64,000 bases of DNA, from contig NC_058499.1 in the NCBI RefSeq assembly GCF_020382885.2, positions 14,741,872 through 14,805,871 on the forward strand, written 5' to 3'. Each line of letters opens with the position of its first letter. Positions within the stretch are counted from its first letter, which is position 1. Source of the DNA: Scatophagus argus. Lineage: Eukaryota; Chordata; Actinopteri; Scatophagidae. Of this stretch, positions 183 to 58,891 are shown one piece after another. Below the pieces are notes generated by a model. That model had not been told where the DNA came from and did no database searches. It saw only the letters and a program-made list of their open reading frames with translations. Position numbers and translations under genes: made by a program.

Positions 183-3100
183 TGATACATTTCAAGCTGG
201 GCCATTTTAGAGATGTGCAGCCACGCAGGTTGAGATAGATCACAAACGGGCGATAGCTCTGCAGAATCTGCTTCACTGTGCTGTCTGTTATCCAGTCTTT
301 CTCCACAGAGAAGTTGACCTAACAGGGACACACATTAGGTAACATTTACACTTCGGTTTTAAGCATCACTTTAAACACTACTGCTACGAATTAAATACAG
401 GAAGAAAGTTCTCATTACAGACCTGACTCCACAATGTGCCTGATTGGATGATAGCTTTCCATGTGCAACACACCTCAGCACAATTTAGCCAGTCTCGCAG
501 TTCTAAATATTTAAAGATCTGCAGAGAATCATGACATTTGATCATTCAGAACGTTTGAAATATTTCAATATCCTCTCTATTTATTTCTTTTTTTCCACAA
601 GAATTACGCTGAAAGTAAGGTTGATACTTTTTCACAAACTGAAGGTTTTTAAAATCAGAAAATATATGTTGGTGGAACATGTCTTGCTGACATACATATA
701 AAGTGAAAAGAGTGCCAAATGATGTGGGAGAGTAAACCGCAGATTAAATCAATGAAGCAACTTCAAGACTGATCACATGATCAATATTTGGTCTTGTAGG
801 TTTTAATCTGATATAAATGGGTGTGGAAATGTTTGGCCAGTGTCAAGAGCACAGGACTCACTGCCACCTCTGCCACTTTGGAAGGCAGTGTAATGTAAGT
901 GAACAAGTAGCCTCTTTCTTTCTCCAAACATAGTCATGCTGAAGCACTTTCCAGGAGAGGTGTTGGACAGATACACCAGAGCACATGAAGCCAACACTGT
1001 GCTCTCTTAGCAAGCGCAAGTGAACCCAAAACAAACAGGGGCTACAAGTGGTAAGAGCAAACAAAGTCAGAAAGATGTTTACTGGAGTTTTAAGCATGTT
1101 TGTAAATTACAGAGCCACTGGTATGAGAGTCCTCCAGTAATTATGTAAGATCTACAATTTAAATGCAAAAAGAAAAAACTATCAGGAACAGATCTTGTGA
1201 GAAAGTTTTGGCATAAATACAACCCTTTCTGTGGCCAAGGGTCATAGGTATACTCAGCTATAATGAGCTGCAACTGACATCAATCAACTGCCTCACAGGG
1301 ACTGGAAGCATGTTTACAGTACAGACCACTTTAGAGCCTTAAGTCTTATGTAATATATATGATCTCATCGCTGCTTAGGGAGCAGAGAAGTGAAGCTGCA
1401 CCAGCTTTAAATCCAGGGCTATCATCATTGTGTGGGAACTAATCAGGCTCATCAACTATAAAGTAAATACATGAAAAAAGTGGCTGAGTGACACATGAAT
1501 GTGGTGTAGTTTAAGAGGAACTACCTTCAGTGAGAGGCTGCTAGGGAGCGCTGACAGTCTGTCACATCCTTCTCCAATCTGGTGAATGTTGCTGATTTCA
1601 ATAAAGCCTCCGGCATGCAGCCTCTATGACATTCACACAAACACAAAAACAAAAAAATCTAGAAAACTGCTTTAATTCATTCTAATTTATTATTTTTCAA
1701 ATTTTTTTTTTTTACAAAAATTCCAAATAAAGTATACCTGAAAGTATTCTTTTGTCCTCTTTGAGTCCAGTGTAACATTACGCCATGCAGTTATGATACG
1801 TTTAAACCGGCCAGCGCTTACAAGTCTCTCAAGTTTCTCAGTGGCAACTAGTTGGGTAAGAAAATAATGTCGTTTCAAATATTCATCACTGTTAAGTATT
1901 TACATCTGTTTTTTTAGCAGAGGATAACATGTGGGAAAAACTAGCATGACAATATCATGATCACAAAGCTGAATTTCACTGAATCTCATGACAAGTTTAG
2001 AAAATTGAGTAAAGGAGGAGCAAAGTGAGTCAAGTCTCAGAGTTGAAGAGTGGAGGGTGAAGGGGACAAAATGAGTCACACGAGTGTGTGTACAGAGTGG
2101 GGAAGAAATGAAACATATCTGGATACATTTCTTAACCACACTGCATGTTTTCTCTGGCTATACACATGAGTCACAGCTTACAGTTAGTCCATATTAGTTA
2201 AGTCAAAACTCCTCATGATCACTTTATCATTCAGAAATATGTAAGTAATCACCTACCAGCCTGTGTCTTCTTGTGCATTTTTACCCAGTTTGACCATTTG
2301 GTGAGTGCAACCTGTTGGCATTTCCTCTCATAATGCCTCTTTGTGAGGTCCATCTTCAGAGCCAGCTCTGTTTTTCCTCTCTTATGCTGCACAGTAAACC
2401 TCTTCCACTTCCTGTCCCCAACAGCAAACACAGTTCATCATTAATTCAGTGGAAAGGTACACAGGCAGACTGCCAGAAACCTGTATTATCTCCACAGGAC
2501 AGGAGACAGTAATACTGAAATGATATTACATCATCTCAAATAGGTTGTTTTCTAAAAATCACCTCAAATGAAGCAGGTCTGGACATTCTGACAGGACAGA
2601 GTGGCTGACTGGCCAGTGATGCAGGAGTCTGCACTGACAAAACAGGTGAAAACTAATCCTCATGACTCATGTTAACAATGAGCCAGAACAGGACCTTCAG
2701 TCACATGGGTCAAATGTCTGCTTAGAGTTACATCTGAGTCACTCTCTCTTGGCATCATGAATGGTTTTAATATCTTATATGTTTGTGGAACAGTTTCACT
2801 GGCTTTAACTTTTTGCATGAGAGGTTAGTGGAATATGTTAAATCTGTCTTTGTTTTAAATAACATTAAGCCCTAAGCCATGCAGCCCTTTGAGTAAATGT
2901 TCCACCTGTGGTTAGTTGATTTTCACACAGCTGTCTATAATCACCCAGTTGCAATCAGTGTAAGCAGAATCTGAAGTTTTGCTCTCAAACTTTCTGAACA
3001 AAGAGAGGACAGAGCATGACTGATTGCTATCTGAGCTGTTACATCTAATCAGTGGGTGCACGTGGATGCTGTGGTAGAACTCACTGCCATGATTCTTCCA

Positions 3101-6100
3101 TTTGGGTGTGTAAAAAAAAAAAAAAAAAGTATTTCTTGCTAAATCTGGACTATGTTACTTTATTCTTTCTGACTTTAATGTGTTCCAGGCTTTCTTGGCT
3201 TTGCACTCTGTTGTTATGGGGATGCATTTCTCCTCAAAAAGGTAAGAATTTTAGCATTATTCCAAACCATGTTCAACCATACAAATTAAACCTCATGACT
3301 TCTTATTCCCTGAAAGGTTACAATGTTGCACATGGCTACTCTGTCGACAATGTTGGACTCGGTAGCCATGGAGGTGTGCTTGGTCCAGAAACCTTCAACC
3401 AGTTTAATTCTGGAGCCTCTTTAAGCACAAACTATCACTCTGTTAGTCCAAAGGAAGAGAAGCAAGCTACAAGACGCCAAAGCTTTGTTTCCTCTCAGCG
3501 AGAACAAGTCCAACATGAGAACAGTGAGGATGCTAGCTCTGTTCCTAGTCTCAGTGAAGAAATGGTACAAAGCAAGCCACAGTTTTCAGTGGACCCCTCT
3601 GCACAGGCTTATGAAAGCTCTGGTTTTCAACACCCCTTTGGCCTTTTAGTAAAGGGCACACAAAAGAAAACTATGGAGGGCGTCAGTTTCCCAACAATCA
3701 AAGATTTCAGACAGTTTATAGAAAGCTTGAAAGGTGCCTTTTTAACCCCAGGAAGTGACTTGGGAAGACATTTTCAAACTGCACGGGAGATTATTAAAAA
3801 CAAAATGGCTTCTAATGCTCAACATATTGAGGGTGAGCCTGAAACAGGCTATAAGTCTAATTCTGCCCACGATGCCGTCAGTGAAAATGGAGTCGGGAGT
3901 GCCCCTATGAAGGCAGTGTTTGAACCAAGCCAACAGAGCACCAGTTACCAAATGCCAAGCGAAAGTGTCTCTGTCCCTGATCCTGTCGACTTCACTGCAA
4001 GTCCTGGTTCTGCAAGTGTTCATGAGTACCACAGCTCAGCCTCTGCTTTCTACACATTCCCTCGGTTAACAGCCAAAGACCATGTTTCAAGTAATTCTGA
4101 AAGTTTTGACCATGGCACCAATTCTGGGGAAGACACTAATGTTTTCACAAGTGCTCCTGAACAAATACCTTTTGACTCATTCTCTGAGGATTTGTCTTTC
4201 AGTGACCATGTGACCGCATCCCCTGTCAACCATCTAAAAACCCCATCTCAAGATTTCAGCTACTATTCAAGTAAGACATCTGATGTAACACCTCTAACCT
4301 CTGAGAATAATGTCCAACAACCAAAACCTACACCTCACAGTAAAGATTATTTAACAGTATATCAAGAACTGTCTGGTGGTTTTGAACTTGGGAAGGATTT
4401 CCAAAGTGAGGAGCTAGGAAGAGGGACTCAAGCCAATGTCCTGTTTTCACCAAAACCTCTATCTTTGAGTTCCTATGGCAAAAGTATATATGTCAATGTA
4501 CCAAGAAGTCAATTCCACATCCCAGATTATTTAGCAAAAAACAGGAAAAAAACAGTCCCATCATTTCTGCCATATCAATCCACTGTTGGAAAGGAATCAA
4601 AGGTTACAAACTACACTCCCACTAGTCACCCCCCTGTATCTAATAATTTTGTTTCTTCAACGTATAATCTTCCACCACAAAGTAGTAGTGATCATGTGAG
4701 TATTCAGTTACGCAGCCCAGATGATGCTCAAAGTCAGACTTTCAAAAGGAAGCAGCCAGTCAGATCCCACCAAGTGTTTACTGTGAATTCCTCCAGCTCT
4801 CTTCAAGGCTCCAGCAGACATGACAGCTTCATCAGAGACCAGAGAGTCAGTGTTACTCGTCCTTCCATCCTAACTGACCAGGAAAAAGACCTTTCTGAGC
4901 AGAATCCAGTCTCTGCCATTCAGGAACCAAGAGAAATGACTGACAATACCCTGATTCCCATTACCGATGGCTTTGATTCAACTTGGAGCAGGACCCAGAC
5001 TTTCATACAACCGACCAAGGTACGAAAGCTTCCAGCCAATGTGAATAAAGAGCCTGGCAATGTGGCCTACTGGCCTCCTAATCCACTGTCTGCATCCAAA
5101 GTTTCTGGCTCTACTTTAAGGAGTGTCTTGTGGAGGAATGGTGGCAACACAAACAGGTTGTTTCTTCAAACAGGCCCCGGTATGTCAAAGTCATCCGTAA
5201 ATAAATATGTTGTGAAGTCCAGAAATGGCTATGTAAGGAGCAAAGTATATCTATCAAAGACCCATTACACACCACATCAGCTGGATGGAGACAAAACTGG
5301 CAAACACCAACAGAAACCTGCTCCGAGGCAACATAAATATAATAACTCTGTATCCCACAAAACAAAAGCATTGAAAGAGAAGTAAGGGAGAATCAGCACC
5401 TTTTCAAATGAGAGAAAACGGTACGTAAGAAAACACTTAAATATTTTGCTTGTGAACGTCACTGTTGTGCTAATGACTGAGAATTTTTATAATTGAAACA
5501 TTTCTCACCTCTCAAACCTTCTAAAGCTGCTCTATTTATCCTTCATTTGACATTAGGATCCTTAAAAAAAAAAAAATTACATGGACCCAAAGGCAGCAGG
5601 GCCAGATGTTTCGGTAAGAAATGTTAGAAAATCACATGATTGTAGAGGTAAAATGGCTACTTTGTCAACATGTAGAACTGAAAGCAAATTAAAAATCTAT
5701 AGCTCTTATGTCTAAAGGACACAATGCTGCCACCCAGCACAGTAAGTGCTTGAGACTCAAGATTGAAAACGGATGTACATAGTCTGCATTGTCTTAGCAA
5801 CCCAATTAAACTGGTGTTTTATTCTGAGAATATATCATTTTCACACCTAAACTGAAGTTTGACATTGTTTCATTTTTGTTTTTCAATAGGATGTGCTGCC
5901 ATCTTCAGCTGGGAGGAAACTCAAGTCTCTGCTGCTCTAAACAGTAAAGGCATTAAATATTTTAAACAATTTTCTGTCACTTGTCTTGATTGTCACATAT
6001 AAAAAAAATCAGTTAATCAAACTCATATGTCAATCATGACTGCAATACTGCAGGCCTACCTGAAGTAAGAACTTGATAAATGTTTTCTGTAACAGTGGTA

Positions 6101-7601
6101 GGCTTTCTCAAACAGACAAAAGGGCAGCTAGAAAAGAAAACAACAATTATCAAGAAAACACTAAACTCAATTTCATTTGAGTCTGAACAGTTTGTCAGAA
6201 ATCTGGGGCTCGGTCTTACTTATGATGGTATATGTGCTATTTAACCATACTGTACCATGGTGTCTTCTTGGTCTGTATAGGCAGAGTCCATCGTCCTATG
6301 TTGCAGAGAAGTTGTTGCAGAACGCTGTTCTATATAAGCAACAAACTTGTGCCTCCAAAAGAATAAAAGTGCATTAAAACAGATCACATCTAGAGAAAAC
6401 CTTTGTGTAAAATTAATGAGTTATTAGTGCAAGAAGTAATTCATGTTATGCTTAACCTGATCAGGAAAAATATTAAGTGGATGTACACAGTGCAACCTGT
6501 ACCATCTTCATATTCAGATTTGCTTAACATGCACCAGACCAGAAATGTGCTGATGTTGCTCACACAGTGAGCTGTACAAACAGTACATTGACATGAAGGT
6601 TATAAATCCAGTGCAGTCCTTTCTCAGTCATTACGTATACAAATTCATGAACTGTTACTTCACATACTATTTACACAGATTCTGAATTCTTGAATATGTA
6701 TATACAGTGCTTAATGTATAATTAACTTTAGGACTTAAAAGACGCATTAATCCCAAGACTTGTGCACAACCAAAGTCTAATTTTGCATTACATGTTTTCT
6801 AATATGGATGCATTCCTTAGTTAAACTGTTTTAAATGTACATGATCTGTAACTATTTCAAGTTTGGAAAAAAAAAAAACCCAAAAAATTTTCACCAAAAA
6901 TCCAAATTGACAAAAATCATATAGTATTCTCCATTAAAAATGTGGTCAAAAATGAATTATACCTTTAACAAAGTGGTATTAAGTGTTGAGAAGATTGGTG
7001 CTTAGGATCCCCAGAAGTCCAAGAACATATATGAAGGTTAGAAAACACATGCATCCACACAAAGTTCTCAATTATTGCCAATATTCACTTAAAGGAGCAA
7101 GGATAGTGTGACAGAAATACTATTTCTGTATTTGGAGACCATGACATTCATTGTTAGCAGGAAAGGAAAACTGGAGAAAGTGAGCCACCAAGTGTCTGCC
7201 TCAAGGAAAGTCACAAGACAGGAGGTCTACCTACCAGTCAACACCCTGAAGATTATCATGTCCTTGAAAGGCCAAAAGTGCGTTTTTCAGAAACTCTATT
7301 GGGTCATGGGGGCACGACTGGCATGAAGCTGTCAATAAGGCCTATCGTCAAAGAGGGTGAAATTAAGATGTCAATGATATTACTGAAAATTAATATTCGG
7401 GTGGCGATAGTCAAAAAAATGAACTGAATGTGTAAAAACAATTGACATGAACTCATGTTCTCTGTAACGTTACCGTTACAAGCAGCTAGCATAACTAATT
7501 AACCATATCAACATCACAACGTAGCATACCTTATATATTTGTGGCAGGCAGTGTTTCAGTTCGCACTCTTTCGGAACTGGTCTTGCGTTTGCTTCAGCCA
7601 T
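183..7601 (-). CDS. fbxl13: F-box and leucine-rich repeat protein 13 (DRC6), N-terminal part, cut by the left edge
   Basis: Nine coding exons read right to left: 7601-7530 (ATG at 7601), 7317-7235, 6352-6256, 2633-2563, 2411-2257, 1847-1738, 1623-1525, 518-423 and 318-183. All have AG/GT borders and compatible phases, giving about 306 codons before the window ends. Residues about 220-262 form an F-box: LSALPSSLSLK, then IFKYLELRDW, then CTWKAIIQSGTLW. The last exon enters the LRR array (FVIYLNLRGC). A basic Trp/Lys-rich region (RKWKRF, KWSNWVKMHKK) precedes the F-box. FBXL13 is known as the animal counterpart of the ciliary nexin-dynein regulatory complex subunit DRC6 and as an SCF substrate receptor. 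The F-box and LRR exons are secure. The first three exons rest on phase agreement and a CPHDPIEFL motif and are less certain. The head-to-head arrangement with armc10 matches the human neighbourhood and supports the name. Confidence 0.88.
519..1524 (-). other. fbxl13 intron
   Basis: Between the F-box exon (518-423) and the exon 1623-1525. The small minus-strand ORFs around 800-1270 do not match F-box or LRR sequence and lack matching splice phases. Confidence 0.55.
2903..2941 (+). promoter_or_regulatory. Possible core promoter of the nested gene
   Basis: A TATAAT-like box at 2936-2941 and an E-box CACCTG at 2903-2908 lie about 240-275 bp upstream of the chosen ATG. Their position suits a promoter, but both motifs are short and could be chance. 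Confidence 0.25.
3178..5385 (+). CDS. Unrecognised secreted, Ser-rich, cysteine-free protein nested antisense in fbxl13
   Basis: A single reading frame runs open from about 3052 to a TAA at 5383-5385. I place the start at ATG 3178 because it opens a typical signal peptide (MCSRLSWLCTLLLWGCIS). Codons upstream of it read through an A-rich tract and look like UTR. A GT-AG intron probably lies at 3242-3316. It is 75 bp, a multiple of three and free of stops, so the frame survives either way: about 710 aa spliced or 735 aa unspliced. The mature chain has no cysteine that I can find. It is rich in Ser, Gln, Asn and Pro, with N-glycosylation sequons NYT, NSS and NNS, and ends in a basic tail (HKTKALKEK). 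No known domain is visible. Length, uninterrupted coding and signal peptide argue for a real gene. I cannot name it and infer only a disordered extracellular or matrix-like protein. Its expression site is unknown. Confidence 0.72.
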   Translation: MCSRLSWLCTLLLWGCISPQKGKNFSIIPNHVQPYKLNLMTSYSLKGYNVAHGYSVDNVGLGSHGGVLGPETFNQFNSGASLSTNYHSVSPKEEKQATRRQSFVSSQREQVQHENSEDASSVPSLSEEMVQSKPQFSVDPSAQAYESSGFQHPFGLLVKGTQKKTMEGVSFPTIKDFRQFIESLKGAFLTPGSDLGRHFQTAREIIKNKMASNAQHIEGEPETGYKSNSAHDAVSENGVGSAPMKAVFEPSQQSTSYQMPSESVSVPDPVDFTASPGSASVHEYHSSASAFYTFPRLTAKDHVSSNSESFDHGTNSGEDTNVFTSAPEQIPFDSFSEDLSFSDHVTASPVNHLKTPSQDFSYYSSKTSDVTPLTSENNVQQPKPTPHSKDYLTVYQELSGGFELGKDFQSEELGRGTQANVLFSPKPLSLSSYGKSIYVNVPRSQFHIPDYLAKNRKKTVPSFLPYQSTVGKESKVTNYTPTSHPPVSNNFVSSTYNLPPQSSSDHVSIQLRSPDDAQSQTFKRKQPVRSHQVFTVNSSSSLQGSSRHDSFIRDQRVSVTRPSILTDQEKDLSEQNPVSAIQEPREMTDNTLIPITDGFDSTWSRTQTFIQPTKVRKLPANVNKEPGNVAYWPPNPLSASKVSGSTLRSVLWRNGGNTNRLFLQTGPGMSKSSVNKYVVKSRNGYVRSKVYLSKTHYTPHQLDGDKTGKHQQKPAPRQHKYNNSVSHKTKALKEK
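3242..3316 (+). other. Short in-frame intron of the nested gene
   Basis: The donor is GTAAGA directly after codons CAA AAA G. The acceptor follows a pyrimidine-rich stretch (cttcttattccctgaaag). Removal joins G to GT, giving Gly-Tyr-Asn-Val, so the frame continues. At 75 bp it is near the lower limit for fish introns and encodes 25 codons without a stop if retained. Confidence 0.6.
5386..5957 (+). other. Probable 3' UTR of the nested gene, possibly spliced, with poly(A) signal
   Basis: After the stop there is a strong donor (gtacgtaag) at 5421, an acceptor at 5555-5556, a second donor (gtaaga) at 5614 and a second acceptor (tttcaatag) ending at 5889. ATTAAA at 5952-5957 could be the poly(A) signal. 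The pattern suggests one or two 3' UTR introns. Only transcript data can confirm it. Confidence 0.4.
5958..6255. other. fbxl13 intron remainder, nothing recognised
   Basis: AT-rich sequence between the likely end of the nested gene and fbxl13 exon 3. I see no further exon or repeat. The introns at 6353-7234 and 7318-7529 likewise hold nothing I can identify. Confidence 0.5.
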
Positions 7602-8616
7602 ATCTTGTTGTGCCAGTGACTGTCACATTAGTTGTACAGATACCGCTTTTCTTACTAACTAGCTTAGTTTAGGGATGTCAGATTTTGCATGGTACTCCAT
7701 CTTCATTTAGAAATTCAACGTTGCCAGGTAACGAATTAAAACTTTACAAACGATAAATGTTGGACAACTAATCAATGCATTTAATGTATCAAGATTTTAA
7801 TGTGGCGTGGTGTACAAAGTCAACAGTGTGACGCTCATGACGACCAGATAAAAGACTGCACGTGTTAACAATTGTTGAAAAATAAATATATTTTGATATC
7901 TACAGGTTTGTATATGGCTGGAAACTCCTCGTTCATCACCCAGCGAAAGATTTGGTCGGCCATCACGAGCTGCCCGCTGTGTTGCCAGATTGGACGGCAT
8001 ACACTTTGACATACACAGCAAACCGTAATTTCATTGTTTATCACAGCTAAAATCAAACCTTGTCATTTTAAGTTTGCAGCTGTACATATGTGACAACATT
8101 TTAACGTGTAATGTGAAATTATTTCAAATGCGCTTGTTATTTTTGACAATAACATTATTTATAAATCTTGTAACCGTAAGTCTGAATTTGCCTAATGATG
8201 CTGACAAAACTGAAGAGCAGCGGGGCTGCTTATCCCCCCTCCCCGAGTTCTTATCTTACACACTTACATTATATGAAATCCCTTTCCTAAATGATCCTTA
8301 AAAATTTGTGACACTTTTATGACGATTTTTGCGGATTCTGGGCTCCAATCTGGCAACAACAGCTGCCCGGAACAACGGAACACAACATTGTTGACAACTG
8401 TGGCTTGTCAGCAAACTTCTCCAGTTTTCAGAACAATGAATCTGTCCAGATACATTTGGCTGGGCTTTGTAGCGGTTTTTATGGGTTGTCGTCAATGCTA
8501 GCCAACTAAAGAGTCTGGTTAGTTAACGGGTGAGTCAACACATTTGACTCATTTCAGCGCATCTGTAGCTTAACATTAGCTAACAGGCAGAGCTTAGCTA
8601 AAGACATAGTAGCAGC
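7602..8616. promoter_or_regulatory. Shared divergent promoter region of fbxl13 and armc10
   Basis: About 1 kb separates the fbxl13 ATG (minus strand) from the armc10 ATG (plus strand). The genes are transcribed away from each other, so this interval must hold both start sites. I see no clear TATA box, as is usual for housekeeping and ciliary genes. A roughly 100-bp block at 7910-8010 is open on both strands but I cannot assign it to a gene. The sequence CCAATCTGGCAAC occurs near 8345 and in inverted orientation near 7980. Confidence 0.55.
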
Positions 8617-10510
8617 ATGGGTGATAGTATTAATCCCAGGCTCAGCAACATGAAAGCATTGCTTGGGATAGTTGCCGGAGCTGGAGCTTCTTATGGGATA
8701 TACAAACTTATCAGCGGGGGGAGCTTCAAGAGAAACAAAAAAAGTGTCACCAATGAAAGTCCTGGTGTCAAGAGCAGTCAGCCCAGCGATGTTAATATAC
8801 AGCGAGGCAGCCTGTTGGCAAGAGTGTCTGGATTGGATGTTGTCAGTCACCGACCTGATGTTGCATCAGGTGAGAACCGTAAAGATCTTAAAGCGGAATA
8901 ATCCTCACGGTAACTACATCTAAACCTATGCGATTGTTCCAGCAAAGTATGGTCACTTCTTTGATATCAGATTTTACAAAATCATATTCCGAGCTTCCAT
9001 TGCAGACACATTTGAAATATTATTAAATGTGAGTTAAAAGTCTTATTTTGCTCCATAGGTGACATCACCTACGAGTCCCCTGGCAACCTGGAGCCACAGC
9101 ACTTGAAAATGTTGCTGTCATGTCTGCAAACCAGCCGTAATCCATCTGACAGATGTCGGATCCTACTTACGTTGGGAAATGCTGCTGCCTTCACTGTGAA
9201 TCAGGTGATTAACTTTGTTCAGTGAATATTAAATGAATGTGGCCTCTTATACTGATTGCGCCAGTGGTGTGTTAATATTAACTGGTTGCTCTAATGTAAC
9301 ATTTTAAGTTAGCTAATTGCTAAAAGTTGTGTCAATCTTGTGTTTTGTTAGTGGTCGTCATATGCCTTGGGAGAAATATCAGTTTTTCAGCTATGCAATA
9401 TCTCTTCTCTTTTTCTTTTTCCCACTGATCCTCCAGAATCTAATACGGGAATTTGAAGGCATTCATATCATAGCTGGTTTCCTGTCTGATCCTGCAGCGG
9501 AGGTTAGAGTGCACACTCTGAATGCTTTGAATAATCTATGTATGAACATCCCAAACCAGGAACAAATAAAGGTATGTTGTCACATTATAGCAAATGTCAT
9601 GCATCCTTACTGAGCACAAGATTCATTTTGACATAAGTATTCATGTCCATTTTTGTGGAAGATAGGTTTCACATAAACATTACGCTTGTCTTGCAGGTTT
9701 ATGTACCACAAGTGCTGGAGCTGATTGAGATGTCACCAGTGAATTCTGACCTTCAGCTCGGTGCTCTCAGACTGCTGACAAACCTCTCAGTCACAGATAA
9801 ACATCAACACTTGCTGAGGGAATCAGTTACGCTTTTACTCTCCCTACTTGTTGTGAGCAATGAAACATTACAGGTTAGTATCTTTTGAGGTAGCACCAGG
9901 CTGGCCTTCTTCGCATTTGTACAGAATCAGTTGTCAAAGGCTATTTAAAAAAATATGTCATGATTATTGTGTTTGTGTTTTGGTATATTTGAAAGGTTGT
10001 AGCTCTTGTTGGAAAACAGTTAAAGCCATTATAACTGCAAACACAATAAGAATTCAGTATTTGCACTTCAGGTCCAGGCTTCGAAAGTCCTTGTGAATCT
10101 TTCATCTAATCCGGATATGATGGATGACATTGTCCAAGCCCAGGTGAGAACAAAGGGATGTGATCATCCTGATGTAAAACAATGATTTGCATGTTTATAT
10201 ATAATGCTAATAACATATATAGTAATTCAGTTTTTTCCTTCTCTGCTTTTTGCTGTAGGCACCAGCTTCTGTTGTGCTGCTGTTCGATGCACGAACAGCC
10301 CCTGCAGTGCTTCTGCGACTGCTGATGTTTGCAGGGAACTTAAAGGCCTGGAGACCCTCTGCCCAGGTGGCTGATGAACTGAGACGGAAGAAGGATTGCC
10401 TCTTCCGGGTCATGCTAGATGAGCCATCTCAGCTCCACAGCAGATTGGTCCAGCTGCTCTCACACCCTGATGGGGAGATCCAGGCCCAGGTGGCTCGTAT
10501 CTTGACATAG
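8617..10510 (+). CDS. armc10: Armadillo repeat-containing protein 10
   Basis: Six exons (8617-8869, 9059-9204, 9437-9571, 9697-9873, 10072-10143, 10259-10510) join in phase to 344 codons plus TAG, close to the usual length of about 340. An N-terminal hydrophobic segment (MKALLGIVAGAGASYGIY, residues about 12-29) with little before it fits a signal-anchored outer mitochondrial membrane protein. The rest carries armadillo repeats, seen in ALNNLCMNIPNQEQIK, GALRLLTNLSVTDKH and VLVNLSSNPDMMDDI. ARMC10 is known for roles in mitochondrial transport and fission and as the ancestor of the mammalian ARMCX/GPRASP family. The start is the first ATG and is followed at once by the membrane anchor. Exon borders are all standard GT-AG. 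Confidence 0.96.
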
Positions 10511-16400: not shown

Positions 16401-19400
16401 CCCCTCTTGTGACCGTCATCTATTAGCTTGTCTTCCACCTACCGGTCTGACTCAGTTTAACTTGAAGTGGTGCTCCTGTCTCACTCTGCCTGTGGCGCAG
16501 TTTCCTCTCTCGGGGTGCCGTGCGTCATCTCGTAGGCAGGTGAGGCGGATGTTCCTGAATGCTGAATGTGTGCGTCAAAGCTGGCAGCTGAGAGAAGACT
16601 GTTTTTTGCAGTGGTTTTTGTTCATGTGGCTGTGATGATGTGAGGTACGGCTGAACGCGAAGTCTGACAGATCATGGTGAAATGGGGAATACTGTAGAGT
16701 GAAGAGGAGTGTTGAAGGGCAACCCCTCAGAAAGTTTTTTCAGCAGTTCTGTCTCATCCACTCATTCTCACACAGGCTGCATGTAACTGGAGCTGGAGGC
16801 TGACACAAGGTGCAGAGGATGGGCAGAGGAGAAACTTGAGACAGACATGACAATGCATATATTCAATGTAGAAATGTAGAGGTTTTCCTGCATGCGCTGC
16901 AGATTCAGTCCTTTCATATATGTGCAGCTGTTGATGTATGAAAAAGGAGCATATTTTCATCCTTTGCGCAGTTCCTAGATTGTAGATTTTCCCACTGCAG
17001 CATGTCAGGGATGAGGGGTGTCGTACTGCTTTCTTAGTCTATCGCTATGGTAATGAGTTGTGTTACATAACCCTCGGAAGGGTTTTTCCCTCTTTGCTGC
17101 AGAGAGGCACTTTTTTTCAGCCCGTGTCAAGCAAGGTCGTCCTGTCCGAGCTTTTTCATAAATCAAAGTTGCTGTCATTTTGTGACGTCTTCTGTTCTGT
17201 CCTTTTCCTCTTGCAACGAATGGCCTCTCAGCAGCGATGAGGTTCACAGTTCACTCCGTGCTAATACGATAATCCCGTCACATCTCTTTTTCTGTGTGTG
17301 TCTGTCTGTCTTTCAGGCGAGGCCTTCGAGCAGAGCCCCATTCGACGGTCCTTCAAGTCAAAGGTTCTGGTGCACTACCCTGAAAACACAGACAGGAACC
17401 CCTTCAATAAAGATGCTGTCAACATGGTGAGATCTCAGATTGCACACAAGGGACACTCTTCTTCAGTGTCGCTCGTTTTCTTTCACAACAATGGAAATGA
17501 TAAGGATGGACAAGATGTGTCCTGTTTGTAGGTCAGATGTTTTGTGGTTCTTCCAATCAGTGTACAAGAACACTGGTACAAATGACAAAAGAAGAACATG
17601 ATAACAACTGGAAAAAGGGTATTGGCAGCTGTTTATCTTTGCTTGTCTGCAGCCTCTCATAGAATATACTCCCTTGTCTTTTTTTGTCTAAATACACAGG
17701 ACTTGTTTATTGTTCTGTGTTGGGAAAGCAGGTCAGGATGATAAAAGCATAAGCCTCAAAAGAATTGTTAGTCAGATGGAATTAAATTATTTTTGTTCTA
17801 CTGCCTGCCTTTTTTACACACCAGAATTTGTTGTCAACAGTCTCCCAGTACAAACCATAGTATTTATTTTGCATTACTTGAAAAAGCATTCAATTTTTGC
17901 ATTGACTGGATTTTACAGAACAATATCAATTCAATAGATCAGCTTTACCAGTGTCAGGTGTCAGGTATCACCTTCTTATACAACCCCCCCCCATGGTCCC
18001 TTTTAAATTACCGTACAGCACAATTGATTGGATAGGCATACTCTGTAATGGGTTTGTGTTTACGTTGTCCCCGATAGGTTTTAGATTAGTATTCAGAAAT
18101 CAAGATATCAGAGATCATTGTTAAAGGTTGCATTTAAGTCACCACCTCATTCTAAACCTTCTTTTATGTTTTCTTCTCCCTTTCCTTTTCTTTGTTCCAT
18201 ACATTTTCCCTGCAGCTCTGTATGCCGAGGGGTCTTTCCTTTCGCACGCAGGCAGATCCACTCGACCCTCAGTTTCACTCATTCACCATGTCTTTTGAGG
18301 ATGGCACACGTTCCTATGGCTTTGTCCACACCTTCTACGAGGAGGTGACCAGTGCTCAGATAATCACTGCCATGCAGACTCTCTACCAGATGCATCATGT
18401 GGAGCACCACTCAGCTTCCTCTGCCTCCTCTCCCTCTTCCTCATCTTCGTCTGCTTCCTCCCCTTCCACCTCCAGCATGGACTCACTTGTGAGCAGCTTG
18501 GATGAGTCAGACGCTGAGTCTCTGGCCGGGGTGTCTGGTTGCCTCGGCTGTGCAGGCTCCTTTGATTCAGCACGGGACACACTATATGTCTCCAAAGCCC
18601 TCTGCCTCCTCACACCACTCCCCTTCCTTCAAGCTTCTCGACAGTTTTTGTCTCAGCTACACCGGGCTGTCGCGTCACACATAGCTCCACCTCTCCCTCT
18701 GGAAAGCTACATCCACAATATCCTGTATGAGGTGCCACTGCCTCCTCCTGGCAGGTCACTGAGGTTCCATGGGGTACAGGGACCCATCGTGTGCCAGCGG
18801 CCTGGGCCGGGTGAGCTTCCAATGGGGGAGTATCCTCTTGGAGAGGCATTCTCTCTGCTGGGTGTGGACAATATGGTGAAACTACTCACCTGTGCACTTC
18901 TGGAGACTCAAGTCCTGCTTTGCTCTAAAGGTCAGCACGCTGTTCCCTGCTCAGTTCTTAGCATGCTTGAGGTGACACTCAAAATGAGAAATTCACACAT
19001 TTTGATGTGATGAATGTGAAAATGTATATTATAATTATAATTTTAGTTGGGCCCGTAGATAGGGATATGAATGAAAAGGCTCTATTAGCAACTCATGGAA
19101 ACCGCTTCATTGAAATGCTGTTACAGCTAATGTCCTGAGTTCTTCCCTTGATACATAAAGGTGAATCATTCGTGCTGATGTCCCATCTTTCATCTCCTCA
19201 GACTACCAGCGTTTGATGACAGTAGCAGAGGGTGTCACCACCTTGCTGTTCCCATTCCAGTGGCAGCACATCTACCTGCCCATTGTTCCTGCACCTCTGC
19301 TTCACCTGCTGGATGCTCCTGTGCCATTCCTGATGGGTATCCAGCGCAGAGACGGAGCTCAGCGATCCTCCCTCCACCTTCCTCATGAGGTACAGGACTA

Positions 19401-22400
19401 AACAAGGATCTTATGTGTAAATGCATCTGAAGTTTCCTATGTGAACCTGCCACTCCGAATTTGAGACTGCAAAAATTTTCATAAACATTGAAGCGAACAT
19501 TGAAGAATCTTGAAAACTTGATAAACTGAATGCTGAACTGATGCTTTTACACTCATTTGCTGTAACACCTCTGTCCTGTATGCGTGACAATTTGTCCTCT
19601 GACTCCGGCCTGTCGAACTGAGACGGTACATTTCCTCCTCACCAGTCCAATCACTTTATGGTGTATGAATATCTCACTGAAGCCTCTTTGAAGTCGATGT
19701 GCCCCAGGAAGAAGGCAGTTGAAAGACAGCTTGGGGGGATGAAAGCAAAAGTGCAGAGCATGAGAGATCCAGAATAATGGGACTCGATGAATAATTAATG
19801 ACAGTTAGGGATCACCACTTATTTCTTGAGTTGTGAGTGGTAATTTGCAAGGAAATCAGAAATAACACAGTTTGGTTCACATGAACGAAAAAAATGCTTA
19901 AATACTTAAATGGTCCTTCTTAATATTGATATACAGGGAAAACCTTCAAAACATATGATTGTCTCCTGATATTTGAATTTAAAAAGAGGATGAAAAGACA
20001 AAGAAGTGAAGAGGTTGAAACTGCAGAGAGTAAGTGGATGTCTGCAACTGTCTGCTACAGTACATCCTCCAACTTCCCCCGAGGCTGTAAACTGAGGTCG
20101 CTGTTGAAGGTCATGTTGCTGCTGACTGCACTGTGCTTCACTGCTGCTTATGAAGCAGTATTTTTAAATCAGTGCCTATCATTCTCACACTGTTCTGTAA
20201 TTCTTTGCTCAACAGCTTCGTGGGCTCAGGTTTTTCTTGTTTACTTTCACTGGCTTTCACTGTTTGTTTGCCAATGAAAGCCTGATATTTCCTAATTTCC
20301 CCTCTTGCAGTGATAGCAGTAATCATTCGATAATCCTTCACGTACTAATATCCTCTGAGGCTTATAACGGTGAAATGCCAAGAATCTATTAATGGAAAAT
20401 AAATCTTGATCTCTGATCTTAATTGGATGTAAAAGCTTAGCCAGAATAGTCTGTACGTTTTGATTGGGTCAACATGTTATGATTATCTGAGGGAGGATTG
20501 AGTTGGAAAGTGTTTTTTTTATCTATATTTTTAAGTCTCTTGTTTGTCTCTGCTCAGGCCAACCTGTGCTTTGTGGACATTGATAACCACTGTGTCGAGG
20601 CTCCTGAGGACCTACCTGTGTTTCCAGACCAGATCGAACTAATCCAGGAACTGAGTGAGGTGCTTCTACGTTTCGGGCTCCCTCCGCAGGGCGGTGCAGT
20701 CACTAAGCCCACCACCACCTCCCCTCGCCTGAGCAGCCTGGTGCTGGAGGATCTGATGGAGGACAGAAGGAATGGGAACCTCGGAGGAGAGGAGCTGGCA
20801 GTGCTGGAGAGGCTGCAGGCTCTGGCGCGGAGGTGCGGAGGAGGAAAAATGTCAGATGGAGGGAAGACGCTGGGTCACGTATTTGAGGAGGAGGAGGAAG
20901 AGCTGAAGGCAGCGAAACTGAATATTCAGCTGAGGGAGGTGTTTGCTGCACGTTTTGCTGCCATGCTTGGCAGGTATGAGGACTTTGTCATCCACAGCGC
21001 TCTTGATTTGGACTCCTGGTTGAGCAACCGAGAGGGGACATTCAGTTTTGACAAGGTACAGTAGATTCAGTAGATTTTTGAAATCCTTTTGAAGAAACCC
21101 TATATCTTTGTCGAGATACAGACAAATATATATTGAAAGTGTTTGTGCTTTGCAACATTTCAGGGCTCCTTTCTCTCAGTGCAGCCTGCAACCCACTTGC
21201 ACTTCTTGTCCCGGTTCCTGGAGACATCCATGTTTTCTTCTTTTGTGGATGGGAAGGTGATATCACGCTGGGCAGATAGAGATCCAATGCAGCAGCTGTT
21301 TGACAACCGTCTGGAGAGGGAACGACTGTATGACACAGATGAGGAGGACTTTCGTAATTGTCGCTACAGGAAATGCACCTCGCTCTTTGAGTCAGGTACT
21401 GTGAAGGTGCTCAGGGACAAAAAAGGATGCACTATGACATACATGTTGTGGTGAGATAAGATACAAAACAGATACTGTATTCCTACCACAAGGAACACAG
21501 GACAAATTGTGTAACAAAAACAGAAATCCAACTCAGATGTTGCTGTTAATATATCGCATTACGTCCCTATCCAGGGCTTTTTTGGAAAACTTGACATTGA
21601 CATGCATATGCAGAGAAGACTGATTAACCTATGACTTCTGAAAGCAAACAGTGACAGTATACAATTGACAGAATTTTGACGCTTAATACTCACTTAAATT
21701 ATTACATGTAGTAATTAGAAGGGACTATATGTTTTCATGAGAACCTACATCAAACCAAAAGAACTCTTTTCAGCATTTAGATAGTAAATAGCCAGAAAAT
21801 AGATTGAAGCCCCAGTTGGTAGATTGAGCAGAACGATGTGATTAAAGAGGATGCTAGATTTTCTAGAGGGAATCTGTAAATCTGTTACCGTCTGGCCTTC
21901 TGTTTGGGTTTATTCTGTACAGTATGTTGATTAAGTTACTTGGATGCACTGTTGGAGGGGGACATGTGGGCCCGAACATTTAACTATTCTACTGGTGGAA
22001 ACAGTTTTTAGATGGAAATGAAAATCATATCCTATCCCTTCTGAAACATAAAAGGGAATGGATATAATCTGATATGGGGCAGAGGGGGTGAGTAACGTTA
22101 GGGAATTAGAGAGGGGTGAATTAAAATCTGTGGCAGAGGGTGAACTCTGTATGGTATACGGAGGACAGAGCTTTGTGCTTTGAAGTCCTGCCAGCCTCTC
22201 TGCAAAAAAGAAATGCACCGCTTGCATCTCAGTCTGACCACACTGTTGTTCACATTCTGTCTCTGCCTCAGAGATGTTGCTCCATCTCTTTTGATGTATT
22301 GTACTGTCAGCCACATAATCTCACACTGTGCTCTTGTGTGCCATACATCCTGGTCTTCCTCTCAGTCACTTTACAACTTAATAAACCAAGTAGCACTTAA

Positions 22401-40142: not shown

Positions 40143-41178
40143 TAAGGCAGATTCAAAGTTGAAATGCAACTGCTTTGGTATTTTTGTACCCAAAAGCCCA
40201 AGGATGGGTTGGTAACATGATTAATTGCAACTTTATTTAGGGAATAGCAAAAAGCAACCGCAGTTGAAAAGGCAAAACATCCTTCTGAAAACAACAAAAC
40301 AGTCGTGAATAGTCTAAACATTTAGTCTGAGGTTGTCTCTAGAAAAAAATCCAACATGACACATTCAAATGCATTGATTATCTGCTTGGATTTTATGTAG
40401 TACGTCAAGGTCTAGTTCAGTTCAGTTAATACTATTCAATAAGGCTCCTCTGAATATGCTAAAAGAGTAGGGAGCTCCAGCACACGTGGCACAATGAACA
40501 GACAACGAGAGGATCAAGCAGTCAACAAGGACCAGGCATCTCATTTTGTCCCCCAGTGATGTAATCTGGACAAGGAAAACGCCTCCCAAACACTAATATG
40601 CACTAAATAATATCACTTCAGTTTAAAGAAGCAACCAGGGAAAACCATTAGGTTAACACAAAGTTAATGGCAAATTAGGAATCACTAAAATATTCAGATA
40701 TGATACTTCACTTCGATCTAGTTTTCAACAACGAAATAAATGTTTGCAATTTGTATTGCACTGACCGCCAGAGGGCGCTAAGCACAAACAGGCATTTTTT
40801 CAGACAATGGTGTCAAAGGACACCGTAGCTAGTCCACAAAGCACGAAACTCGCGTTTGATGATATATCGATGTATGACTGGGAAAATAAGCACTTTAACA
40901 GTGGACTGAGCTAATGGTACAGTGACACCTTTTTCACTTAAACCAGTCGCCCGAAGATATGTTTTAGGCGGCTAGCTGTAGCTAACATTAACGTCAGGCT
41001 CGGCCGCTAACAGCAGTTATGGTCGACGTCAGCACAGAGAGGAAACACACACACACGACCAAACGGTTAGCTACACACGACCGCACCACTAAACAAGCAA
41101 CGTCAGCTTGCTAAGTCTTCTGCAAAACATTCACTTTATGACGGAGTCACCTGAAGCTACATCAGTGCTGCTCCTAAA
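40143..41178 (+). promoter_or_regulatory. Intergenic gap and ergic2 promoter/5' UTR
   Basis: AT-rich to about 40.75 kb, then more GC- and CpG-rich near the ergic2 ATG (cggccgct, gtcgacgtc). A TGACGGAGTCACC motif 47-59 bp before the ATG resembles joined CRE/AP-1 half-sites. No TATA box is evident. Confidence 0.4.
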
Positions 41179-42882
41179 ATGAGGAGGCTGACCAAGAAGA
41201 AGGCTCTGACTCTGGTGAAGGAGCTCGACGCTTTCCCCAAAGTTCCCGAGAGCTATGTGGAGTCCACAGCCAGCGGTGGGACAGGTACGCTCACTCCAAA
41301 GCAAAGTGAAGCTTTCGGTGCTACATACTATCACATAATTCTACATATTCACTCTTCTGCCCGGGGAAGTGACTTTAATGTTAATCGTTTTCATACTCTC
41401 TTTAGTGTCTCTGATAGCGTTCACTCTCATGGCTGTCCTCGCCTTCCTGGAATTCTTCGTGTACAGAGACACATGGATGAAGTATGAGTATGAGGTGGAC
41501 AAAGACTACAGCAGGTGAGAAACTTAAGATGTGCAAGTTATTTCTTTTGGCTCAGTATGTTTCCTTAACTGCATCTGCTCTTCCCTTACAGTAAACTTAG
41601 AATAAACATTGACATAACAGTGGCCATGAGATGCCAGTGTAAGTACACAAATCTGTATCTTTTCGTCTGTATGTCATCACTTAATTCACATGTGGTTGGG
41701 AAAGGTGTCATGGGCTGTTTTTAACTTGTGTGCAGACATCGGCGCAGATGTCTTGGATCTGGCAGAGACCATGGTTGCTTCTGACGGCTTGAAATATGAA
41801 CCAGTGAGTTCACCTTCACTGTGCAATAGCAACTTATTTGCTGTATTATAAAGATGTGAGGAACGGTTAAATGTTTAAAAAGTTATTTTCTTTGCGTTTC
41901 AGGGGTAAAGTTCATTGTGTTTTGTCACATTTTAGGTCGACTTTGAGCTCTCTCCGCAGCAAAGATTGTGGCACATGTAAGAACCAGGTTTTTCACATGC
42001 AGTACTATTATATTTATGAACACTTCCTCATGGGATATAGTGGCATTTTCATCCAGTAATAGCATTATTTAGCTATATGATTTAAAGGCGACTGTCATTG
42101 TGGTGCAGACGGTTGATACGGCAGAGCATTGGTGGCACTGTCAGCGACTCTAAAGGACACCCAAAGGTGTTTAAATTCCCTGGGGCTATTTGGTTTTGCC
42201 TGATTTGTAGCTGAAAAGCAGGGCTAAAGTTTACATGTATGTTCTTTTATTGAAGAGGAGGCCTAAATTTATAAAATGTTGAACTGGAGTGATTTTGTTT
42301 CCTTCGTTGTTCTGTGACCATCAGGACGCTTCTGCACATCCAGGAGCGTCTGAAAGTGGAGCACTCGCTACAGGATGTACTCTTCAAGGCTGCAATTAAA
42401 GGGGGTCCTCCTGTTCAGCCTCAGAGGTACACGATCCTCAACATAAGCTTGTGTCTGTTTGGAGTTGAGAGTTGGTTGAAGACTTGATTAAAAAGATAAA
42501 CAAGGACGTTTTCCCACATCTCGTACACTGTGATTAAATTAGTGCGTCCATGTTGTGTTTGCATTCTGTTTCCCCACAGGGAGGACAGTTCGACCTCCCA
42601 TAGCGCCTGCAGGATACACGGACATCTGTATGTCAACAAAGTGGCAGGAAATTTCCACATTACTGTTGGCAAGTATGTATCTACATGGTCATTTAAAAAA
42701 TAATAAAGATTGAAGAGATTAAACATTTGTCTGAATTGTACTAATCAGACCTGACTGTATCATATCAGTGTGTTTACCTCTGAGCTTTTCATCCCTGTGC
42801 AGGTCCATCCCACATCCCCGAGGCCATGCCCATTTAGCTGCGCTCGTTAGCCATGACTGTGAGTCTGCTATTGTTATTGTAT

Positions 42883-48763: not shown

Positions 48764-58891
<10,128 letters not shown>

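Follow-up and report, generated by a model that had tools for sequence, protein, structure and literature searches.

Several described systems resemble, each in part, the gene reported here. Seminogelin-type (REST) genes, which are mammalian, are built of a signal-peptide exon, one large exon and possibly 3' untranslated exons; a literature search on seminogelin gene structure gave no result. Mucins carry Ser/Thr/Pro tandem repeats. The SCPP family (e.g. AMBN and AMELX) comprises secreted, disordered, Ser-rich chains whose loci lie elsewhere, and its acidic members have many S-x-E phosphorylation sites. SCPP introns are virtually all in phase 0, as stated in excerpts of PMC6732285 and, for the same rule, PMC5118209. 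As for genes nested in FBXL13, an excerpt of PMC6994161 describes mouse Fbxl13 exons 10-12 as overlapped by Lrrc17, and a part of PMC3933685 lists the nested LRRC17/FBXL13 pair for human and for coelacanth and/or zebrafish. Among the papers listed in literature searches around fbxl13, lrrc17 and armc10, in teleosts and zebrafish too, no title or displayed abstract opening concerned a nested gene such as the one below.

The window, that is, the whole 64,000-nt stretch of Scatophagus argus DNA analysed (C7:14741872-14805871 in the assembly), holds a long plus-strand ORF within an intron of a minus-strand host gene (Table 1). Seven minus-strand exons of the host join in one open frame that starts MAEANARP, and LRR-like stretches lie further left on the same strand, the best of them just under the curated cut-off (LRR_6, E 1.6e-4). 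A PDB search with the joined N-terminal host peptide found nothing at E 0.001. We take the host to be fbxl13 from its F-box, its LRR-like stretches and the neighbours reading as fam185a, lrrc17 and armc10; the fam185a-reading neighbour had no Pfam match. The intron that holds the ORF is far longer than any of the other five between the joined exons, which measure 114-882 bp. A candidate minus-strand fbxl13 exon at about 5890-5940 was rejected, as no usable donor was seen by eye. The sequence-only reading had placed the ORF antisense in an fbxl13 intron, and this was borne out, as the ORF lies wholly inside 2412-6059 and the exons flanking this intron join in frame.

Table 1. Positions of the ORF, its predicted parts, its host and the neighbouring nested gene (window coordinates unless stated)
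Feature	Position	Strand	Basis or remark
ORF, 735 codons + TAA (protein P0001)	3178..5385	+	frame without interruption
Signal-peptide-like start MCSRLSWLCTLLLWGCIS, residues 1-18	3178..3231	+	hydropathy, read by eye
Probable intron, 75 nt, phase 1, keeps frame	3242..3316	+	donor/acceptor scores
Large coding exon, mature protein	3317..5381	+	end set by the 5381 donor, if used; without it the exon reaches the 5385 stop and continues
Predicted helical pair, residues 174-216	3697..3825	+	best-predicted part, ten-residue mean pLDDT 53-76
Basic C-terminal part, residues 601-735	4978..5382	+	25 K+R vs 4 D+E
Possible further exon	5557..5613	+	acceptor 6.73, donor 7.45; moderate scores
Possible last exon (end guessed)	5890..5975	+	acceptor 8.69, top 2.0%
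Host coding exons 1-4 as read	7601-7530, 7341-7235, 6352-6256, 6127-6060	-	joined frame
Host intron holding the ORF, fourth coding intron as read	2412..6059	-	3,648 bp
Later host exons	2411-2257, 1847-1738, 1623-1525	-	joined frame
F-box exon and next exon	about 518-423, about 320-187	-	joined pair vs F-box-like, E 2e-9
lrrc17-like gene, also antisense within the host	L002, about 6880-9880, left of the window	+	LRR_8, E 7.9e-24; one exon

The lrrc17-like gene lies between the fbxl13 LRR-like exons and the window, and its last frame ends in a stop about 120 bp beyond the left edge of the window, which leaves about 3.3 kb between that stop and the ORF downstream. Since this gene sits in the same host, the host carries two nested genes, both on the plus strand, the ORF being the second. 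The idea that the ORF replaces lrrc17 was rejected on the same ground. An earlier suggestion of a separate nested gene thus held insofar as the ORF is distinct from lrrc17, but the ORF does not stand in its place, as a gene reading as lrrc17 is also nested here. Both are same-strand neighbours nested antisense in one host, whereas LRRC17 is an LRR protein and the ORF has no LRR match and occupies an earlier host intron.

Other genes were also read in and around the window. An armc10-like gene (window 8617-10510, +; Arm_2, E 3.7e-75) stands head to head with fbxl13. It is followed by a DENN-domain gene (18156-21064, +; DENN, E 3.2e-29), presumably dennd5-like, and by a gene start at 41155-41487 (+), which reads as ergic2. 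A region at about 51329-55927 (-), with a PDZ exon (PDZ_6, E 1.8e-9) and DYRQPP-like repeats, is presumably a MAGI gene. Outside the window, on its left side, lies a gene that reads as fgl2, at L003:940-6718 (+; Fibrinogen_C, E 4.6e-84). Its upstream open frame of 1294 codons is unusually long, disordered-looking and Lys/Glu- and Pro/Thr-rich, and it had no Pfam match.

About 700 codons had been described as open without interruption, and such a frame is present in the DNA, with 735 codons and a TAA at 3178-5385 (+), inside a stop-free frame of 778 codons (3049-5385, +). For the mRNA the description probably does not hold, given the probable 75-nt intron and perhaps splicing past the stop, and a single exon spanning the whole ORF is doubtful. 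In 120 simulated 64-kb sequences, 40 each under Markov models of order 1, 2 and 4, the longest stop-free runs were 232, 258 and 236 codons, respectively, against the 778 found here; 1000 simulated 2208-nt strings matched to the region in composition reached a stop-free maximum of 301. The length of the ORF is beyond chance. Only one match to the ORF, and no second copy, was found in the animal's own genome (570.7 Mb, 48 contigs; E 0.001).

The period-3 signal was likewise strong. The signal-to-noise value of the ORF was 12.3, while none of 105 overlapping windows of presumed non-coding DNA exceeded 3.0; 68 of these lie in 39-48 kb, where the ergic2-like gene has exons, and the remaining 37 were also at or below 3.0. 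Among 1000 random stop-free codon strings no value exceeded 8.0. The neighbouring coding exons, when joined to 2205 nt, scored 7.8, and this control supports the signal of the ORF. A lone 798-nt DENN exon scored 2.6, so that a short exon may be coding despite a weak signal.

Codon usage, examined both as RSCU and as log-odds against a cleaned reference of 988 codons from fbxl13, armc10 and DENN exons, failed to single out the ORF frame. The RSCU correlation was 0.42 in frame, with three of the five wrong frames higher (0.59, 0.57 and 0.44). The codon log-odds was -0.017 in frame and 0.038 and 0.012 in two wrong frames; the in-frame value fell among those of 184 windows presumed to be non-coding, which went up to 0.023. 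An earlier, rougher codon set gave the same outcome; two of its 18 pieces were dropped for ambiguous frame, some pieces probably include intron, and one 102-nt fbxl13 piece was in the wrong frame. GC3 was 0.376 in the ORF, as against 0.528 in the neighbours and 0.475 in fbxl13. G at four-fold sites was depleted in the ORF (0.083 vs 0.163-0.178 in DNA presumed to be non-coding, p 1e-4 to 3e-6), a depletion that one wrong frame shared (0.069) and the neighbouring genes did not (0.255). As codon usage is not frame-specific, the coding case rests on length and the period-3 signal. If the ORF had arisen by chance, or were a functionless gene that died recently, the indifferent codon usage and the lack of relatives in the collections searched would be understandable, but its length and period-3 signal are far beyond chance and it has no internal stop, whereas a dead gene would soon gain stops. 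We consider this explanation extremely unlikely, and 3178-5385 is very likely a real gene, one worth annotating and of an ordinary kind.

The 5' end of the ORF reads, by eye, like a signal peptide, as had been proposed. Nine-residue hydropathy windows there reached +2.1, AlphaFold2 predicted a helix at residues 2-16, and all three Cys of the 735-residue ORF (residues 2, 9 and 16) fall within this start. One base past codon 21 stands the donor AAAG|GTAAGA, with a score of 10.66 (top 0.23% of 7667 GT), and the acceptor that would pair with it scored 7.46 (top 3.7% of 8484 AG). The splice scores came from weight matrices, and as a control the sites of ARMC10 scored 8.1-11.2 (five donors) and 7.1-10.7 (five acceptors). 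Comparably scoring frame-keeping donor/acceptor pairs at a spacing of 60-150 nt numbered four on both strands of the 64-kb window, the 75-nt intron included, and the other three may be real introns. Removal of the 75-nt intron joins QKG to YNVAHG. These results suggested that the intron probably separates a signal-peptide exon from a large exon, and secretion of the product is likely.

The ATG itself has a weak-looking context and is overlapped by an acceptor-like site (6.33, ending at 3188), and for these two reasons the actual start codon may belong to a different exon. The region could then be a real coding exon that is not secreted as drawn, either spliced from an upstream exon to the 3188 acceptor or serving as an alternative 3' part of lrrc17, whose like stands upstream on the same strand. 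This is quite improbable: the frame after the ATG is signal-peptide-like, a strong donor closes the first exon, and the last lrrc17-like frame has its own stop well upstream.

At the 3' side, a donor at 5381 (7.34) overlaps the stop TAA and a second one lies at 5420 (7.81). An ATTAAA at 5952 is a possible poly(A) signal, AATAAA occurring only at 6362. In a splice model running from 5381 through 5557-5613 to 5890, the stop would be replaced by a tail that ends MCCHLQLGGNSSLCCSKQ and holds four Cys. Under this model, the mature protein would therefore not be cysteine-free. The earlier claim of a Cys-free mature chain accordingly stands for the ORF, which has no Cys after residue 16, and would fall if the Cys-bearing tail is spliced on. 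Translation of the two candidate downstream exons in either of the other two frames was rejected, as one frame meets a stop if the exon starts at 5557 and the other overruns the ATTAAA. The 3' end of the gene is uncertain.

The composition of the ORF agreed with its description as Ser-rich (Ser 15.2%, Pro 7.3%, Thr 6.8%) and as ending in a basic tail, with the charge counts given in Table 1. It did not agree with a description as low complexity, since only two of 724 twelve-residue windows fell below 2.2 bits, no tandem repeats were found in the ORF, and self-BLAST returned the full match with no internal repeats. Disorder, which had also been suggested, was predicted for most of the chain: AlphaFold2 run on the single sequence gave a mean pLDDT of 38.2, with 642 of 735 residues below 50, although confidence in this mode is also low for many folded proteins. 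FoldIndex was near neutral (-0.016, with 30% of windows 'folded'). Confidence was better mainly for the signal helix, for two helices (174-189 and 194-216) and for a beta hairpin at residues 647-665, itself weakly predicted.

Searches for relatives agreed with the view that the protein matches no known family, in that no significant Pfam, PHROG or PDB match was obtained. With the whole ORF, Pfam returned no family at E up to 10 and PHROGs no match. When the ORF was searched in four pieces, two gave one match each, Nuc_N at E 0.054 and Toxin_ToxA at E 0.074; neither reached its curated cut-off, both were taken as chance, and the other two pieces gave no Pfam match. The best PDB hits, at E 1.2 for the whole ORF and 0.43-1.7 and 0.36-0.54 for two pieces, were also taken as chance. 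No relative was found by tblastn in the viral and prokaryote contig collections, where fish genes are not expected; pattern matches there numbered 6 and 35 stretches, respectively.

Compared with the SCPP family, the ORF shares a chain that is predicted to be secreted, disordered and Ser-rich, with a signal-peptide-like start and no Cys in the mature part of the ORF. It differs in that the intron predicted to follow the signal peptide has phase 1 instead of phase 0, in having only three S-x-E sites in 735 residues instead of many, and in its locus, the SCPP loci lying elsewhere. A mineralisation protein of the SCPP kind is thus very unlikely.

The ORF is close to mucins in its S+T (22%) and P (7%) content but lacks their tandem repeats, has no internal repeats and has no cysteine-rich domain. 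With seminogelin-type genes it shares a signal-peptide exon and one large exon, a likeness of gene structure, and those genes are mammalian and at another locus. A further explanation is that the gene encodes a fast-evolving reproductive or mucus protein, such as an egg envelope accessory protein or a component of ovarian or seminal fluid, and not one of tissue matrix. A Ser-rich chain with a signal-peptide-like start and no significant relatives would be in keeping with this, as would the exon arrangement of mammalian seminogelins. In addition, an excerpt of PMC6994161 gives the host fbxl13 as part of the axonemal nexin-dynein regulatory complex, so that germ cells may keep this locus open. 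On the other hand, neither the Pfam search nor the Cys count of the ORF revealed a ZP domain with its conserved Cys; with no Cys after residue 16 and no Pfam match there is no sign of such a domain, and mucin-like tandem repeats are missing. We regard a reproductive or mucus protein as possible but doubtful.

The reading that we prefer, with a probability of roughly 0.5, is a real single-copy gene, antisense in the fbxl13 intron, whose product is a secreted, mostly disordered, Ser/Thr-rich chain that binds matrix or surfaces. The splicing, secretion, glycosylation, binding and matrix role that we infer for this product would fit together as follows. A short first exon would encode the signal peptide and be joined, across the 75-nt phase-1 intron, to an exon of 2.06 kb encoding a secreted, mostly disordered, Ser/Thr-rich chain without disulfides. 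This chain would probably be O-glycosylated along its Ser/Thr-rich stretches and remain extended. The basic C-terminal part could anchor it outside the cell by binding polyanions, for which glycosaminoglycans, glycoprotein coats or mineral are candidates, and the helical pair at residues 174-216 might serve for binding or self-assembly. A role in the extracellular matrix, as first proposed, or in binding to surfaces is a reasonable but unproven guess.

A bolder version would make this a second nested fbxl13 gene confined to ray-finned fish, perhaps arisen from intronic antisense DNA and not as a retrocopy, and its product the first of a new family: secreted, disordered proteins of matrix or gametes that carry a helical-pair motif and a basic anchor. 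We find this version improbable.

The function itself would be of moderate interest. If the gene is real and conserved, a locus with one nested gene already in place would also encode an unnamed secreted protein, and the gene would be a neat case of genes settling inside introns. A knockout of fish fbxl13 by deletion of its early exons could also remove this second gene.
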